In this document: in pieces, positions 1,614-45,316 of the stretch
Numbering within the stretch: the first letter of the stretch is position 1
Layout of the letters: each line of letters starts with the position of its first letter
From: Paucilactobacillus hokkaidonensis JCM 18461
GTDB lineage: Bacteria; Bacillota; Bacilli; Lactobacillales; Lactobacillaceae
NCBI RefSeq assembly: GCF_000829395.1
Contig: NZ_AP014680.1
Location: forward strand, 62,001 to 126,000
DNA length: 64,000 nucleotides
Direction of reading: 5' to 3'
Made by a program: the position numbers and the translations under genes
The notes under the pieces: model-generated
Told to the model about the DNA's origin: nothing
What the model saw: only the letters and a program-made list of their open reading frames with translations
The model's database searches: none

Positions 1614-2234
1614 CTATACCTTTTCTTGCCTTAATTTATCTGCTTCTGCAATAAAATCTTCAATCTTTTTTGGAGCTGCCCAATGTAACATATGAATATG
1701 CTTAGCTCCATGAGTATTTAATAATTTATCTTTCATTATTTTAGTGAATGCTTTTTCAGCCGTTGTACCAAACACAAGTACAAACTTAGGTTGAATTAGA
1801 TCAAACTCTTCTTGTAACATTTTAGTATTTTGAATCAATTTTTCATGATTTTTAGGTTCTAAAACCGTTTTTATAATACCAGGACTTGTACCTGGATCGT
1901 TCTTTATTATATCAGTCATATAGCTACCCACAAAAGGCGTATTTAATATCATTCTAGTAGTATTATAATCACGAATACGTGTACTACCATTATGAAAGTT
2001 AGACCAATCAAAGTTGCTATTGCTATCTTTTCCCATATTTGATCCCAATAAAATAGCATTACTGTTCAGGGTATTATGGCGGTATTTTGGCTTTTCAAGA
2101 TCTTTTAGAAACGGCTCAATTGATAATTCTTTCGTATGAATTGTTTTACTAACGTCTGCGATATCCCAGAGTGCCCAGCTACTATAACATGCATATTTAT
2201 CTTTTAAAACTTTGTAAGCTTTATCTGATATCAT
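1614..2234 (-). CDS. Uracil-DNA glycosylase-fold-like protein of unknown function
   Basis: A 206-residue soluble protein that I cannot name firmly. Three segments suggest a divergent uracil-DNA glycosylase fold: AILLGSNMG near residue 60 (position of the first catalytic loop), KFVLVFGTTAEKAF near 150 (the central strand and following helix) and HIHMLHWAAPKK near 180 (position of the HPSP-type loop). The canonical GQDPY and HPS residues are absent, so glycosylase activity is not implied. A weak AAGGCGATGG precedes the start. It is read in the same direction as the sortase gene upstream but with about 57 bases between them and no clear shared function. A second, closer UDG-family protein lies at 13531. 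Confidence 0.45.
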   Translation of the reverse strand: MISDKAYKVLKDKYACYSSWALWDIADVSKTIHTKELSIEPFLKDLEKPKYRHNTLNSNAILLGSNMGKDSNSNFDWSNFHNGSTRIRDYNTTRMILNTPFVGSYMTDIIKNDPGTSPGIIKTVLEPKNHEKLIQNTKMLQEEFDLIQPKFVLVFGTTAEKAFTKIMKDKLLNTHGAKHIHMLHWAAPKKIEDFIAEADKLRQEKV

Positions 2235-2291
2235 TTAACCATCGCCTTTATTTTTTATAATTATTTTCAATAATATTAATACAGTACACAG

Positions 2292-13170: not shown

Positions 13171-13440
13171 ATCGTCCTGTACAAAAATTTGTACAAGGAC
13201 GATTACGATTAAACCGTGGTGCCACCTATATTTACAATCAAAAAATGACTGCCTTGGTGCTTATTAAAATGGTCAAATAAGCTGGCAGCATAACGATTGC
13301 TAGGCGTAGACATGGCGTTAACTTGTCTAATACTCCGAGTTCATCTTCACTAGTTTTAAAATGTACCCTTGCAGCGAATAGGTACTCTCTTAAAATTAAA
13401 ACGAGTTACTCTTCTCATCAATATTTAATGTATTAACTTA
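13171..13440 (-). promoter_or_regulatory. T-box leader with predicted methionine specifier (ATG)
   Basis: A minus-strand leader for the Ldh2-family gene. In order: gatgagaagagta opens Stem I, the AGAGAG element and a distal loop follow, then gtGAAGATGAactc, in which the specifier ATG (13342-13344) sits between GAAG and A in the specifier loop. The T-box sequence GGTGGCACCACGG is at 13214-13226. The leader ends in an intrinsic terminator (13171-13204, stem atcgtcctgtacaaa / tttgtacaaggacgat with one bulge, then a T-run). The specifier reading is supported by the T-box at 45037, which has the same GAAGATGAAC loop in front of a methionine-synthase-type gene and compensatory changes in the flanking helix (GAG/CTC here, GAAG/CTTC there). 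Confidence 0.88.
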
Positions 13441-33612: not shown

Positions 33613-33640
33613 TTGATTATGAAAATTAAAATGGTATGAT
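33613..33640 (+). promoter_or_regulatory. Promoter of the aminotransferase leader
   Basis: TTGATT (33613-33618), 16-base spacer, TATGAT (33635-33640) with a TGG extension. Transcription would begin near 33647, 24 bases before the leader peptide ATG. Confidence 0.6.
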
Positions 33641-33670
33641 AAAACCATACTTAATTCAAAGGAGTTTTTA

Positions 33671-33739
33671 ATGATGATATTAACCACACAAACTCAATTG
33701 AATAACTGCCGATATTACTTCCGGTTTTTCCATGTGTGA
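33671..33739 (+). CDS. Tyr/Phe-rich leader peptide of the aminotransferase
   Basis: A 22-codon frame behind AAAGGAG (33658-33664) ends in CRYYFRFFHV: two Tyr and three Phe codons in seven. The codons for Tyr-Tyr-Phe (tattacttccg, 33713-33723) are the exact 11-base complement of 33810-33820 downstream, and a terminator follows at 33826-33864. This is the arrangement of a classical ribosome-mediated attenuator sensing aromatic amino acid supply. Existence of the peptide is inferred from sequence only, but base pairing, codon content and location agree. Confidence 0.75.
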   Translation: MMILTTQTQLNNCRYYFRFFHV

Positions 33740-33866
33740 TTTGTGGGAGCCGAAAGCACTTTAGGCTGTAATAAGCCGGCTGCACAGATCACGTTAATGA
33801 CTGTGCGGGCGGAAGTAATACCAGGAAAACCCCTTGCAGGCATATCGTGACTGTGTGGGGTTTTTG
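33713..33866 (+). promoter_or_regulatory. Attenuator region with alternative pairings and terminator
   Basis: Pairing 1: 33713-33723 (Tyr/Phe codons) with 33810-33820, 11 bp. Pairing 2: hairpin cacag (33783-33787) with ctgtg (33801-33805). Pairing 3: cacagatcacg (33783-33793) with cgtgactgtg (33846-33855), one bulge, which would block the terminator's 3' side. Terminator: aaaacccc (33826-33833) with ggggtttt (33857-33864), followed by further T. Pairings 2 and 3 are exclusive, as are 3 and the terminator. How ribosome position selects among them is inferred, not resolved. Confidence 0.7.
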
Positions 33867-33904
33867 TTTTTTTATTTATATGGTTTGGATTTTTGTTTTG
33901 AAAC

Positions 33905-34015
33905 GTGTTAAGTCAACCAGGCTCCTAGAGCTAAGGTAATTAATCGTCATTCGCCAAGAGCGCGAACAACGCTTAATCATCTTAGCTTACGGAACCTGAC
34001 CGGTTGCCTTAACAC
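33905..34015 (+). repeat. Large imperfect palindrome upstream of the aminotransferase
   Basis: gtgttaag (33905-33912) pairs with cttaacac at 34008-34015, continuing inward through caacc/ggttg and aggctcc/ggaacct, then agctaag/cttagct, and an inner attaatcgtcattcgc/gcgaacaacgcttaat hairpin. The whole 111 bases can form one long arm ending 5 bases before the AGGAGGAGA ribosome binding region. It could be a second regulatory structure or a mobile palindromic element. Confidence 0.55.
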
Positions 34016-34035
34016 TCTATTTTAGGAGGAGAAGA

Positions 34036-35214
34036 ATGAGTCGATTAGTTGGTCACATGAAAAAAGAATTAGCTGCATTGGCACCATCTGATATTTTGAA
34101 GTTTAACCAGGAAATTGCTGATATTCCAGATATTGTGAAATTAACATTAGGTGAACCGGATTTTAATACACCTGAACACGTTAAAAAAGCGGCTATCAAG
34201 AGTATTGAAAATAATGAAAGCCACTACACCAATTCACGTGGAACCCAAGGGCTACGTGAAGCTGCCACGGGTTTTCTGAATCAAAAATATGGGTTAAATT
34301 ACGATCCAGATACTCAAATCTTGGTAACTACGGGAGCTACGGAGGCAATTTATTCAGCATTAACAGCAATCCTAAATCCTGGGGACACGGTCATTATTCC
34401 AACACCAATTTTCCCGCTGTATATTCCAATAGCAATGTTAAATGGGGCAAAACCAGTTTTTGTTGATACGTCTGACAACGGATTTGTGCTCTCACCAGAG
34501 AAATTGGCTGCTGCTATTGAAGCAAACAAGGATACCGTTAAAGCGATCATTCTTAATTTTCCAAACAATCCAACGGGGGTAACCTACAAACGGGCTGATC
34601 TCGAAAAATTAGCTGCAGTGATTTCACAACATGACATCTTCTGTCTTAGTGATGAAATTTATAGCGAACTAACTTATGATGGTCAGCATGTTTCGATGGG
34701 CACAATTTTACCTGAACAAACGCTGTTACTCAATGGTGTGTCTAAGTCCCACGCGATGACTGGCTGGCGCATTGGATTACTATGCGGCCCAGCAGATGTA
34801 ATTACTCAAATTGGTAAAGTACATCAATTTGCGATTACATCCGCTACTACTAATGCTCAAGCTGCAGCTGAGGAGGCATTTAAAAATGGTCCTGATGATG
34901 GAGCCAAAATGCGGGTAACTTATCAGAAACGGCGCGACTTACTACTAGCAGGATTGCAAAAAGCAGGATTCACGTGTGCTAATCCAAATGGTGCTTTTTA
35001 TCTCTTTGCCAAAATTCCAGCAGGATTAACTAACGATAGTTGGAAGTTCTGCTATGATCTCGCTAAAGAAGCAAAGGTGGCAGTCATTCCGGGAGCTTCA
35101 TTTGGACCTGGCGGCGAGGGCTATGTCCGGATCAGTTATGCTGCTAGTACAGAAGATTTAACGAAGGCAATTAAACGAATTCAAGCTTATGTGAGCGAGC
35201 GACTTACTAAATAA
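34036..35214 (+). CDS. PLP-dependent class I aminotransferase, probably aromatic
   Basis: A 392-residue fold-type I aminotransferase of the PatA/AraT group. Blocks: VKLTLGEPDFNTPEHV, ATEAIYSALTAILNPGD, ILNFPNNPTGVTY with the conserved Asn, DEIYSELTYDG with the PLP-binding Asp/Tyr, and NGVSKSHAMTGWRIG with the catalytic Lys in SKSHAM. Transfers amino groups between an amino acid and 2-oxoglutarate. The Tyr/Phe-rich leader peptide upstream suggests aromatic amino acids as its physiological link; AraT-type enzymes of lactobacilli also act on Met and Leu. GGAGGAGAAGA precedes the ATG. GdhA (21910) could supply its amino acceptor. A terminator follows. Confidence 0.9.
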   Translation: MSRLVGHMKKELAALAPSDILKFNQEIADIPDIVKLTLGEPDFNTPEHVKKAAIKSIENNESHYTNSRGTQGLREAATGFLNQKYGLNYDPDTQILVTTGATEAIYSALTAILNPGDTVIIPTPIFPLYIPIAMLNGAKPVFVDTSDNGFVLSPEKLAAAIEANKDTVKAIILNFPNNPTGVTYKRADLEKLAAVISQHDIFCLSDEIYSELTYDGQHVSMGTILPEQTLLLNGVSKSHAMTGWRIGLLCGPADVITQIGKVHQFAITSATTNAQAAAEEAFKNGPDDGAKMRVTYQKRRDLLLAGLQKAGFTCANPNGAFYLFAKIPAGLTNDSWKFCYDLAKEAKVAVIPGASFGPGGEGYVRISYAASTEDLTKAIKRIQAYVSERLTK

Positions 35215-35919: not shown

Positions 35920-36798
35920 CTATAAATTGATTGGTTGTTGCAGTTCATCAATTAGTTTTTCCATCAGTGGGTTAACTTGTGGGCGGTATGCTAATACAAT
36001 ATCAAAATGCGGTTGATTTTTGTCCGTTAGATTGATTGTGTGGACTGATTGGTCATCTTTCAAGGCTAATTCGGTTAAAAAACTAATCCCAACATTTTCA
36101 TGGACCATTCCTTTTAAAACATTAATATCTGGTGTTGTGTATGCAATTTGGGGCTCAAAATGGTTGATTGCCGCGAGTTTGCGAAAGGCAGCTGGATGAA
36201 CGAATCCTTCTTTTAACGTGATGAAGGGTTCTTTTTTTAGTTCCGCAAATTTAATTGCAGTTTGCTGCTGGAGATCGTGTTTCGGACTCACAATAATTTT
36301 AAAATCAGTTTTAGCCAGAGTGATTGTTTTGATTTGTGCCATTTCAATCGGATCAACCGTTCCTAGTAGTGCAACATCAATTTCGCCAGATTGCAGTTGC
36401 TGTTGTAGAGTTGCCGAGCCGGCCTCAAATGTTTGCAAATGTGACATTAAATTTTGTTGAATTAATCGTTTGGCTAGTTGAGGAAAATAATAAGTACCAA
36501 TAATTGGTGGCAGTCCAAAGCGGATCTTTTGTTGTGTCAACGTGACAATATCCGCTTTGGCAGTGACTAACTCTTGTAAGATGGCTTTGGCATGTTCGCC
36601 AAATTCTTGCCCCGCTAATGTTAAGTCAAGCTGGTGATGGGATTGGTCACGAATAAATAATGGGACTCCTAATTCAGCCTCAAGTCGTTTAACAGCATAC
36701 GTAATGGTTGGTTGAGAAACGGCAAAGTGCTGTGCCGTTTTTGTGTAGTTTCGATCTTCGGTTAATTGGACGAAATACTCTAAATCGCGAAAATTCAT
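35920..36798 (-). CDS. mleR: LysR-family regulator of the malolactic genes
   Basis: A 292-residue LysR-type activator. The N-terminal winged helix is typical (MNFRDLEYFVQLTEDRNYTK, AQHFAVSQPTITYAVKRLEA, ELGVPLFIRD), followed by a two-lobed effector domain. It is divergent from the malolactic enzyme gene, exactly the position of MleR in lactic acid bacteria, where it activates mle genes in response to L-malate and low pH. GAGGT precedes the ATG. The assignment as mleR rests on this context plus family. Confidence 0.85.
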   Translation of the reverse strand: MNFRDLEYFVQLTEDRNYTKTAQHFAVSQPTITYAVKRLEAELGVPLFIRDQSHHQLDLTLAGQEFGEHAKAILQELVTAKADIVTLTQQKIRFGLPPIIGTYYFPQLAKRLIQQNLMSHLQTFEAGSATLQQQLQSGEIDVALLGTVDPIEMAQIKTITLAKTDFKIIVSPKHDLQQQTAIKFAELKKEPFITLKEGFVHPAAFRKLAAINHFEPQIAYTTPDINVLKGMVHENVGISFLTELALKDDQSVHTINLTDKNQPHFDIVLAYRPQVNPLMEKLIDELQQPINL

Positions 36799-36913: not shown

Positions 36914-38563
36914 ATGACATCAACACAAATTTTAAATGACCCATTTTTAAATAAAGGAACGGCTTTTACTAAAGCAGAACGCCAAAGTTTACATTTGACT
37001 GGATTGATTCCACCACAGGTACAAACACTAGACCAACAAGTTGAACAAACCTACGCACAAGAACAAAGTAAACCTAATAATTTAGAAAAACGTTTGTTCT
37101 TAATGGAAATTTTTAACACTAACCGAATTTTATACTATAAGTTATTTAGTCAGCATGTAGCAGAGTTTATGCCAATCGTCTATGATCCAACGATTGCAGA
37201 TACGATTGAACACTATTCTTCATTATTCGTTGATCCTCAAAATGCTGCCTTTCTTTCCATCGATGACCCAGATTCAATGAAGGAGACACTAATTAATGCA
37301 GCCGCTGGCCGGGACATTCAATTGATCGTTGTGACCGACGCTGAAGGAATTTTAGGCATTGGTGACTGGGGCACTAATGGTGTTGATATCGCTGTTGGTA
37401 AACTGATGGTTTATACTGCTGCAGCTGGCGTTGATCCGAGTCATGTATTACCTGTCATGTTGGATGCTGGTACTAATAATCAATCATTATTAGATGATCC
37501 ATTGTATTTAGGCAACCATCATGAACGGATTCGTGGTGATCAATACTTTGAATTTGTGGATCAATTTGTCCAAAATGCTGAAGATTTATTCCCCAATATG
37601 TATCTGCATTTTGAGGATTTTGGTCGCGACAATGCAGCTAAGATTTTACAACGTTATCAAAAAGATATTGTCACTTTTAATGATGATATTCAAGGAACTG
37701 GAATTATTACATTAGCCGGTATTTTAGGTGCACTACAAATTTCAAAACAAGAATTGTCAGAACAACGCTACATGAGTTTTGGTGCTGGAACTGCCGGTGC
37801 AGGAATTACTGCACGAATTTTTTCAGAATTAGTTGAACAAGGAATGAGCGAAGAAGAAGCACGTAAACATTTTTACATGGTCGACAAGCAAGGAATGTTG
37901 TTTGACGATGATCCAACATTAACACCGGAACAAAAACCATTCGCACGGCAACGATCAGAATTTGATAATCCTGATGAGTTAACTAATTTATTGGCAGCTG
38001 TTAAGGCAGTTCATCCAACAATTTTAGTTGGAACATCTACACAACCAGGAACCTTCACTGAAGATGTTATTAAAGAAATGGCTGCTCACACGCAGCGTCC
38101 AATCATCTTCCCACTATCAAATCCGACTAAATTAGCTGAAGCTAAGGCGCAAGATTTGATTGAATGGACGAACGGACAAGCACTAGTTGCTACTGGGATT
38201 CCTGCGAAGGATGTTGTTTACAATGGTGTCACTTACCAAATTGGACAAGCGAACAATGCATTAGTCTACCCAGGTCTAGGTTTAGGAACATTGGCAGCTA
38301 AAGCAACCGTCCTAAATGATGAGATGATTTCTAAAGCAGCTCATTCACTTGGTGGCATTGTCGATGCAAGCCAACCAGGAGCAGCAGTCCTACCTCCTGT
38401 CACCAAGTTAGCCGATTTCTCGCAAACAGTTGCTCAGGCAGTAGCTGCTAGTGCAATTGAACAGGGGATTAGCAGAGTTGAAACTAAGGATGCTGCTACC
38501 GCAGTCAATGCAATCAAGTGGGAACCAAAATATACATCAATATCAGATCATCAGATCAGTTAG
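36914..38563 (+). CDS. mleA: Malolactic enzyme
   Basis: A 549-residue enzyme that decarboxylates L-malate to L-lactate and CO2 using NAD and Mn2+, without releasing pyruvate. Blocks: [111 protein letters not shown] and the NAD fold [15 protein letters not shown]. It has the length and sequence texture of the malolactic rather than malic enzymes. Followed by a permease gene 38 bases downstream. Together they give acid resistance and a proton motive force through malate/lactate exchange. GAGGA precedes the ATG. Confidence 0.95.
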
Positions 38564-45036: not shown

Positions 45037-45316
45037 GTTTTATAATCAAATTTTAATAATCTTCAAGAAGAAGAGTAGCAGCTAAGCTATCTAAAGAGAG
45101 CTAGATACGGTGAGAAATGGCAATAGTAAAGTTGTGAAGATGAACTTCGAATGATGATAATTGGTCTTAATAAGGCTGATTATCCGGTAGGAACCGTTAT
45201 TTTTCCGGGTATTATCAAGATACCGTTGAGGCACATTTGTATTGTGTAAAAAAAGGGTGGTAAAGCGTTGAAGCGCCCCTTATCTATGATTTCTCATGGA
45301 TAAGGGACGCTTTTTG
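45037..45316 (+). promoter_or_regulatory. T-box leader, methionine specifier (ATG)
   Basis: Stem I begins gaagaagagta, contains AAGAGAG and closes with gtGAAGATGAacttc; the specifier ATG is at 45140-45142. The T-box sequence AGGGTGGTAAAGCG is at 45254-45267. The terminator is a hairpin from 45271 to 45314 (agcg-cccttatc ... gataaggg-cgct) followed by five T. The downstream gene is a methionine-synthase-type protein, which agrees with methionine sensing: uncharged tRNA-Met would stabilise the antiterminator. Confidence 0.92.

Follow-up and report, generated by a model that had tools for sequence, protein, structure and literature searches.

The window, by which we mean the whole stretch of 64,000 nucleotides of Paucilactobacillus hokkaidonensis JCM 18461 that was analysed (NZ_AP014680.1, positions 62,001 to 126,000), contains an aminotransferase gene preceded by a promoter-like sequence, a short frame rich in aromatic codons, a set of predicted alternative helices and an intrinsic terminator. 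The features are the following, counted from the first letter of the window.

13192-13430, minus strand: T-box leader (90.9 bits, E 1.7e-18; Rfam cut-off 93)
33613-33640, plus strand: promoter-like -35 TTGATT, 16-nt spacer and extended -10 TATGAT (TG before the -10)
33658-33664, plus strand: putative ribosome binding site (RBS) AAAGGAG of the leader frame
33674-33739, plus strand: predicted leader peptide frame MILTTQTQLNNCRYYFRFFHV; stop TGA 33737-33739, alternative start ATG 33671
33713-33730, plus strand: control codons Tyr-Tyr-Phe-Arg-Phe-Phe
33718-33727, plus strand: arm A, inside the control codons; pairs with 33747-33756 (RNAalifold)
33736-33756, plus strand: arm B; 33736-33745 (including the stop codon) pairs with C, 33747-33756 with A
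33780-33792, plus strand: arm C; 33783-33792 pairs with B, 33780-33791 with D
33798-33809, plus strand: arm D; partner C or E
33828-33842, plus strand: arm E, 5' arm of the terminator; pairs with F, or its 33831-33842 with D (antiterminator)
33848-33873, plus strand: arm F (33848-33862) and the T run of the terminator
33899-34018, plus strand: dispersed hairpin repeat between terminator and gene, 120 nt, TGAAACGTG...CACTCT
34036-35214, plus strand: regulated gene, PLP-dependent class I/II aminotransferase, 392 aa (PF00155, 243 bits)
35920-36798: LysR-type regulator, divergent from the malolactic enzyme gene
36914-38560, plus strand: malolactic enzyme gene (NF041582, 997 bits)
45053-45283, plus strand: T-box leader (80 bits, E 1.1e-15; Rfam cut-off 93)

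An earlier note on this DNA had described a promoter, an RBS and a 22-codon frame ending in CRYYFRFFHV, and all three are present, the promoter as a promoter-like site. The 22-codon frame (33671-33739) reads MMILTTQTQLNNCRYYFRFFHV; the leader peptide probably has 21 residues, as the starts of the orthologues align with the second ATG (33674). The promoter call alone is weak, a 3.5-kb scan giving 14 such sites against 11.3 in shuffled sequence; by eye, a TATGAT or TATCAT box stands at the same place in most of 20 aligned leaders. Counting both strands, the whole window has 22 ATG frames that span 15-30 codons and follow an RBS-like site; of these, only the two nested leader frames (starts 33671 and 33674) have at least five aromatic residues in their last nine. 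The intrinsic terminator, given in the note as 33826-33864, was located at 33828-33862 and is followed by a T run; RNAfold forms the hairpin, and a simple terminator scanner did not list it. The window leader folds better than shuffled versions of itself (z -3.6; 1 of 200 shuffles as good). The gene begins about 160 nt downstream of the T run and belongs, as the note had it, with the class I aminotransferases (PF00155, class I/II). Its best NCBIfam match is NF005588 (561 bits, below the cut-off of 576), so the substrate is unassigned by family; the nearest PDB sequence is 4my5. The leader DNA has no match in the plasmid collection searched.

The two T-boxes that the note placed in this window are also there. 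The hairpin repeat downstream of the terminator is probably not part of the switch. It has 12, 13 and 9 matches in three genomes (G000, G001 and G006; leader matches included), and 25 aligned copies share a hairpin of 40 pairs, 24 of them double-changed. Several copies end just before an RBS and some stand in tandem; the repeat has no Rfam match in the window, and may be either a mobile palindrome or a 5'-UTR element. Five Secundilactobacillus loci (L063, L064, L066, L070 and L071) carry, by eye, tandem long palindromic repeats of other sequence just upstream of the leader.

The earlier note had proposed an alignment of orthologous upstream regions. Loci were found with the aminotransferase protein alone in a species-genome collection, which makes the comparison non-circular. 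This gave 18 loci from Paucilactobacillus, Secundilactobacillus, Lentilactobacillus, Pediococcus, Lacticaseibacillus and one unclassified Lactobacillaceae MAG; upstream DNA was sufficient in 17 of them, while L072 ends 148 nt upstream, at a contig edge. In 17/17 orthologues a leader frame of 20-22 codons with (F/Y)YF(W/R)FF stands before the same RNA and is preceded, by eye, by an RBS-like site, its translation being predicted. The six control residues are YYFWFF in 10, FYFWFF in 6 and YYFRFF in 1. Between start codon and aromatic block, the length differences in a MAFFT alignment of 20 leaders (A3) are multiples of three; after the block, a one-base gap alters the peptide tail in L004, L075, L076 and L078. 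With the first base of the first aromatic codon as origin, the stop is at +24 in 16/20 leaders, where it overlaps arm B, and at +48, +30, +30 and +21, respectively, in those four, where a ribosome at the stop would still cover most or all of arm B. The leader pattern was not matched at same-genus paralogues of 50-59% identity (fetched loci L034-L043 and L045-L049). Four further genomes of this genus lack both a close orthologue (best 54-57%) and a leader match. The comparative evidence for a ribosome-dependent attenuator is, on these sequences, strong.

The conserved switch, as read from the alignment, is one of six arms, in which helices A:B and C:D and the terminator E:F exclude helices B:C and D:E. 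RNAalifold proposed A:B and C:D unprompted from 20 leader cores. In alignment A3, 95.9% of the 711 cells of the three OFF helices (A:B, C:D and E:F) are paired, falling to 32-46% when the helices are slid out of register, and they contain 13 double-changed pairs against 8.6 in shuffles, and 61 double-changed cells against 19.1. Taken singly, A:B is paired in 96% of cells with 3/10 pairs double-changed and one C-A mismatch in the window, C:D in 220/220 cells, and E:F in 92.8% with 8/15 pairs double-changed. The ON helices (B:C and D:E) are paired in 92.2% of 437 cells, against 28-49% when slid. They have one double-changed pair (GC 7, CG 6, UA 1, UG 1, unpaired 5), which lies in B:C, D:E having none. 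This is not above shuffles (mean 1.0; 499/500 shuffles reach one), and the double-changed cells number 8 against 3.4. At one position of D:E, 12 of the 19 sequences with letters there have no pair. Covariation is limited by arms C and D each having to fit two partners. The D:E and E:F counts are lowered by two Lacticaseibacillus rows (L075 and L076), misaligned in E/F and retained. As to covarying stems, for which the earlier note proposed a test, A:B, C:D and E:F show compensatory change; B:C and D:E are retained with hardly any covariation. In arm E of the window, G33840 is mismatched in both helices, as A-G opposite D and as G-A opposite F. In the clade of the window, TGG (Trp) has become CGG (Arg) and its partner in B has gone from A to G, so that the RNA pair is kept and the amino acid is not. 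In this sense, the nucleotide conservation of the control codons is partly due to the A:B helix that overlies them.

The two pairings of the earlier note are real in the window, and neither was upheld as the conserved switch, for which the six-arm anatomy stands instead. The 11-bp exact complement between 33713-33723 and 33810-33820 is exact only in the window among the 20 leaders, with 72/140 cells paired in register. Without a fixed register, no more than 25 of 500 shuffles equal the complementarity between the codon block and the D-E linker in 12/20 leaders, the sequences being related. The second pairing, 33783-33793 with 33846-33855, has 10 bp with A33788 bulged and amounts to C with F, paired in 138/182 cells; it arises because F resembles D.

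From the frame, its codons, the helices and the genes that accompany them, we infer ribosome stalling, an order of folding and a response to amino acids. We consider, with a probability of roughly 0.86, that the leader is a ribosome-dependent transcription attenuator sensing charged tRNA-Tyr and tRNA-Phe, plus tRNA-Trp in most relatives. With no ribosome, A, which contains the aromatic codons, would pair with B and C with D, and the terminator E:F would form. A ribosome translating the peptide to its end would cover B, leaving C:D and E:F to form, again the OFF state. Upon shortage of aromatic tRNA, the ribosome would stall on the Tyr/Phe codons, covering A and leaving B free; B:C could then form once C is made, the freed D would pair with E, no terminator would form and the aminotransferase would be transcribed. 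Ribosome-dependent attenuation, already the reading of the earlier note, remains the best one, with the frame and the aromatic codons kept in 17/17 orthologues.

Folding was predicted for the 20 leaders with the ribosome-covered bases removed and for several transcript ends, and the predicted outcomes vary with the transcript end. When a ribosome occupies the first aromatic codon of a transcript that ends after E, D:E exceeds 0.5 in 17/20, all except the window, L064 and L070; with the ribosome on the last Phe codon, D:E is found in 13 to 16/20. With the ribosome at the stop, C:D exceeds 0.5 in 20/20 for a transcript that stops at D; at three successively longer ends in E it does so in 14, 13 and 12/20 (at each of these ends not in L003, L004, L066, L067, L069 and L073). 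Once the transcript extends to after E, with the ribosome still at the stop, D:E prevails in 6 to 8/20. Both expected outcomes, stalled D:E and stop-state C:D, are predicted in 11/20 with the transcript reaching E, the window not being among them. If the ribosome is stalled and the transcript reaches no further than D, C:D prevails in 16/20 and B:C in 4; with no ribosome, C:D prevails in 19/20 at D and in 12-13/20 after E. When the whole terminator is present, E:F prevails in every tested state except in stalled L067, which implies that the decision of the switch must be kinetic and not purely thermodynamic: folding would have to follow the order of synthesis, B:C before D is made and D:E before F is made.

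In the window leader no ribosome state favours D:E, and the forced B:C plus D:E fold has -34.4 against -35.6 for the best one, a cost of 1.2 kcal/mol, so that by these predictions its switch looks weaker than those of its relatives. It may then be asked whether the family is functional and the window copy is decaying, with two pairs of D:E gone, the Trp codon lost and a repeat standing before the gene. The stalled-state D:E of 0.00-0.02 at every end tested and the mismatches A-G and C-U speak for decay. However, the frame, B:C (10/10 pairs) and C:D (11/11) are intact, A:B has a single mismatch and the two folds lie only that 1.2 kcal/mol apart. P. wasatchensis, moreover, shares the loss of Trp and has two such repeats, yet its stalled D:E reaches 0.94 (its stop state gives C:D at 0.84, but D:E when the transcript is two nucleotides longer). 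We regard decay of this copy as unlikely, albeit the most plausible of the alternatives.

A covariance model of the aromatic leaders (R1) matches 80/397 Lactobacillaceae genomes at E <=0.01, in 13/40 genera, with no match in the other 317. It matches 14/295 genomes of an order sample that overlaps with the family sample, including a few genomes from other Lactobacillales families. In a class sample the matches are 2/250, namely the genome of the window and G819 (28.4 bits), which by eye was read as a chance match; an order-level match in G474, without a leader frame, was likewise set aside as chance. The 78 model matches have 23/23 pairs double-changed, in a set fitted to the model and biased towards it. 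R1 has aromatic codons partly built in, so its rows are not independent evidence for the codons; this comes from the 17 orthologues found by protein and from the serine set described below, found with the SerC protein.

Forty R1 matches were read (L109-L148). A frame preceded by an RBS occurs in 34 of them, the exceptions being L130, L132, L134, L135, L138 and L146. In 27 the downstream gene is a relative of the window aminotransferase (52-80% identity). The other 13 genes encode a PF13303 membrane protein (6), transketolase (2), DAHP synthase, shikimate dehydrogenase, SerC, a 2-hydroxyacid dehydrogenase and a weak relative of prephenate dehydratase (below the cut-off); 10 of them were checked with HMMs, and L123, L128 and L137 were named by eye. 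Outside the Lactobacillaceae, six of the eight loci read (L155-L162) have an RBS-preceded leader frame with aromatic codons; the frame of L155 was seen by eye and has a weak RBS, and the eighth locus is the chance match in G474. The genes there are an aminotransferase followed by a PF13303 gene, DAHP synthase genes, an ABC transporter and, by eye, a PDT-like gene (no Pfam match in the two tested). The aminotransferase, DAHP synthase, shikimate dehydrogenase and transketolase genes fit with, and so support, sensing of aromatic amino acids.

PF13303 ('PTS_EIIC_2') membrane proteins follow aromatic leaders at L117, L119, L123, L128, L131 and L143 (L123 and L128 by eye); one stands beside the aminotransferase at L155, and by eye a PF13303-like protein follows the 2-hydroxyacid dehydrogenase at L127. 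This company suggests a role of PF13303 proteins with aromatic compounds; one PF13303 protein, compared with viral contigs, has no relative there. The transketolase leaders (L124, and L137 by eye) end in YYYYWFFK and YLYYWFFK and have an extra stretch between the stop codon and arm B; perhaps aromatic control extends in this way to the erythrose-4-phosphate that feeds the shikimate pathway.

The R1 match that precedes serC (L145) codes for SSSSRSTTAFV. When the genus of L145 was searched with the SerC protein, serC was found in 11/30 genomes and a serine leader in 10 of these 11, not in L173. RNAalifold on the ten serine leaders again gives A:B and C:D, with 98.5% of 198 cells paired and 5 double-changed pairs against 1.8 in shuffles. 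A model of the serine form (R2) matches 40/301 Lactobacillaceae genomes at E 0.05. Among 30 R2 loci fetched, of which L175 and L176 come from genomes used in building the model, an RBS-preceded frame with serine codons was found in 28, not in L199 nor in L185, the latter read at the wrong offset. By eye the downstream gene resembles serC, an identity that NCBIfam bears out for the four tested; at L178 a serA-like fragment follows (56 bits, far below the cut-off, with 105 aa available). R1 finds 5/11 serine loci, weakly (27.9 to 14.4 bits), and the aromatic and serine forms share only the layout and a CACAG...CTGTG core. Serine codons stand before serC and aromatic codons before aromatic genes, a match of codons to pathway that is expected if charged tRNA is sensed. 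It is conceivable, though we would put the odds somewhat below even, that a single modular Lactobacillales attenuator scaffold, a counterpart to the T-box, descends from one RNA with its codons exchanged per gene, and that its targets assign functions, for instance to PF13303 'PTS EIIC' proteins as transporters of aromatic compounds.

The serine form also bears on whether the leader works as an arrest peptide, in which the nascent YYFWFF would cause the stall itself, by binding a free amino acid or a drug inside the ribosome tunnel. TnaC stalls through its nascent peptide, and the high conservation of the motif would be in line with such a mode of action. However, the three aromatic residues stand in for one another, and relatives have R, S or G in place of W. 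The A:B pairing accounts for part of the codon conservation, and before serC the same slot is filled with serine codons, all of which makes an arrest peptide very improbable. Control of translation, with hairpin E:F acting on the RBS of the gene, draws on Secundilactobacillus, where the hairpin ends about 10 nt before the RBS with a short T run between; we judge it very improbable, given that even there the RBS lies outside the hairpin, and that in the window a long T run follows E:F with the gene about 160 nt further down. A tRNA-binding T-box or other known riboswitch has a negligible chance, even though T-boxes commonly control genes of this sort and the window has two of them: the T-box covariance model has no match in the window leader, nor does any Rfam family, leader type included, at its cut-off (best sub-threshold matches 25 bits against cut-offs of 55-59).

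In lactic acid bacteria, the control of amino acid genes is commonly attributed to T-boxes or repressors, and aminotransferases are linked to aromatic compounds in fermented foods. T-boxes bind tRNA directly and need no leader peptide; a T-box (RF00230) resembles the attenuator proposed here in that amino acid genes are controlled by tRNA charging and a terminator. The his, phe and trp operons of enterobacteria are the classical leader-peptide attenuators, the his type having six arms. The leader of the window is like them in its short frame with control codons, its exclusive helices, its intrinsic terminator and, for his, the six-arm logic; it differs in sequence, in belonging to Lactobacillales, in having Tyr, Phe and Trp together and in its several unlinked targets. 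Aromatic amino acid regulation in low-GC Gram-positives was reportedly treated by Panina et al. in 2003, which may bear on these leaders. If ribosome-dependent attenuation is true, a translation-dependent sensor of aromatic amino acids and serine would explain the control of aminotransferases in lactic acid bacteria; the leader codons would name the amino acid and make gene function predictable, and a regulatory layout carrying different control codons offers a testable case. What the earlier note found is right in kind and understated in extent.

That note called classic leader-peptide attenuation rare in Firmicutes, which is fair, but attenuators of this type have been reported or predicted there, Lactococcus included, in PMC2965389, PMC9413887 and PMC5794164. 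They comprise hisS/hisZ leaders in bacilli (PMC2965389), his-operon leaders in the B. cereus group, Eubacteriales and Erysipelotrichales (PMC9413887), and the ilv-leu attenuator of S. aureus with BCAA leaders predicted in Lactococcus lactis and Streptococcus (PMC5794164). Between them, passages of PMC2965389, PMC8632094, PMC9413887, PMC2494555 and PMC5794164 cover his, hisS/hisZ, cysS (alpha-proteobacteria) and ilv-leu attenuators. As far as these sources extend, the Firmicutes examples share the mechanism and the phylum (Lactococcus and Streptococcus also the order) with the Lactobacillaceae aromatic and serine leaders, and differ in the amino acids and genes concerned. In a literature search that covered subscription journals in part, no aromatic or serine leader peptide of Lactobacillaceae was found. 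The mechanism is thus of a known kind, and the Lactobacillaceae aromatic leader family is apparently undescribed.

A distant member outside the Lactobacillaceae, L161, has the leader NFYFSFFR before an ABC transporter (ABC_sub_bind/BPD_transp_2), and is matched at 2043-2253 (minus strand) by RF02863, 'Enterococcus sRNA 2410', with 59.2 bits against a cut-off of 61. RF02863 has no match in the window, nor at E 0.01 in the other 17 loci scanned, and the main text of the Enterococcus transcript paper (PMC7724050) mentions neither 2410 nor leader peptides. The outer helix of RF02863 is the arm pair A:B of the leader family, the difference being that it is filed as an sRNA. RF02863 may represent a terminated leader that belongs to an ABC transporter operon and encodes an aromatic peptide, and the leader family may in this way explain one Rfam sRNA without a stated function.
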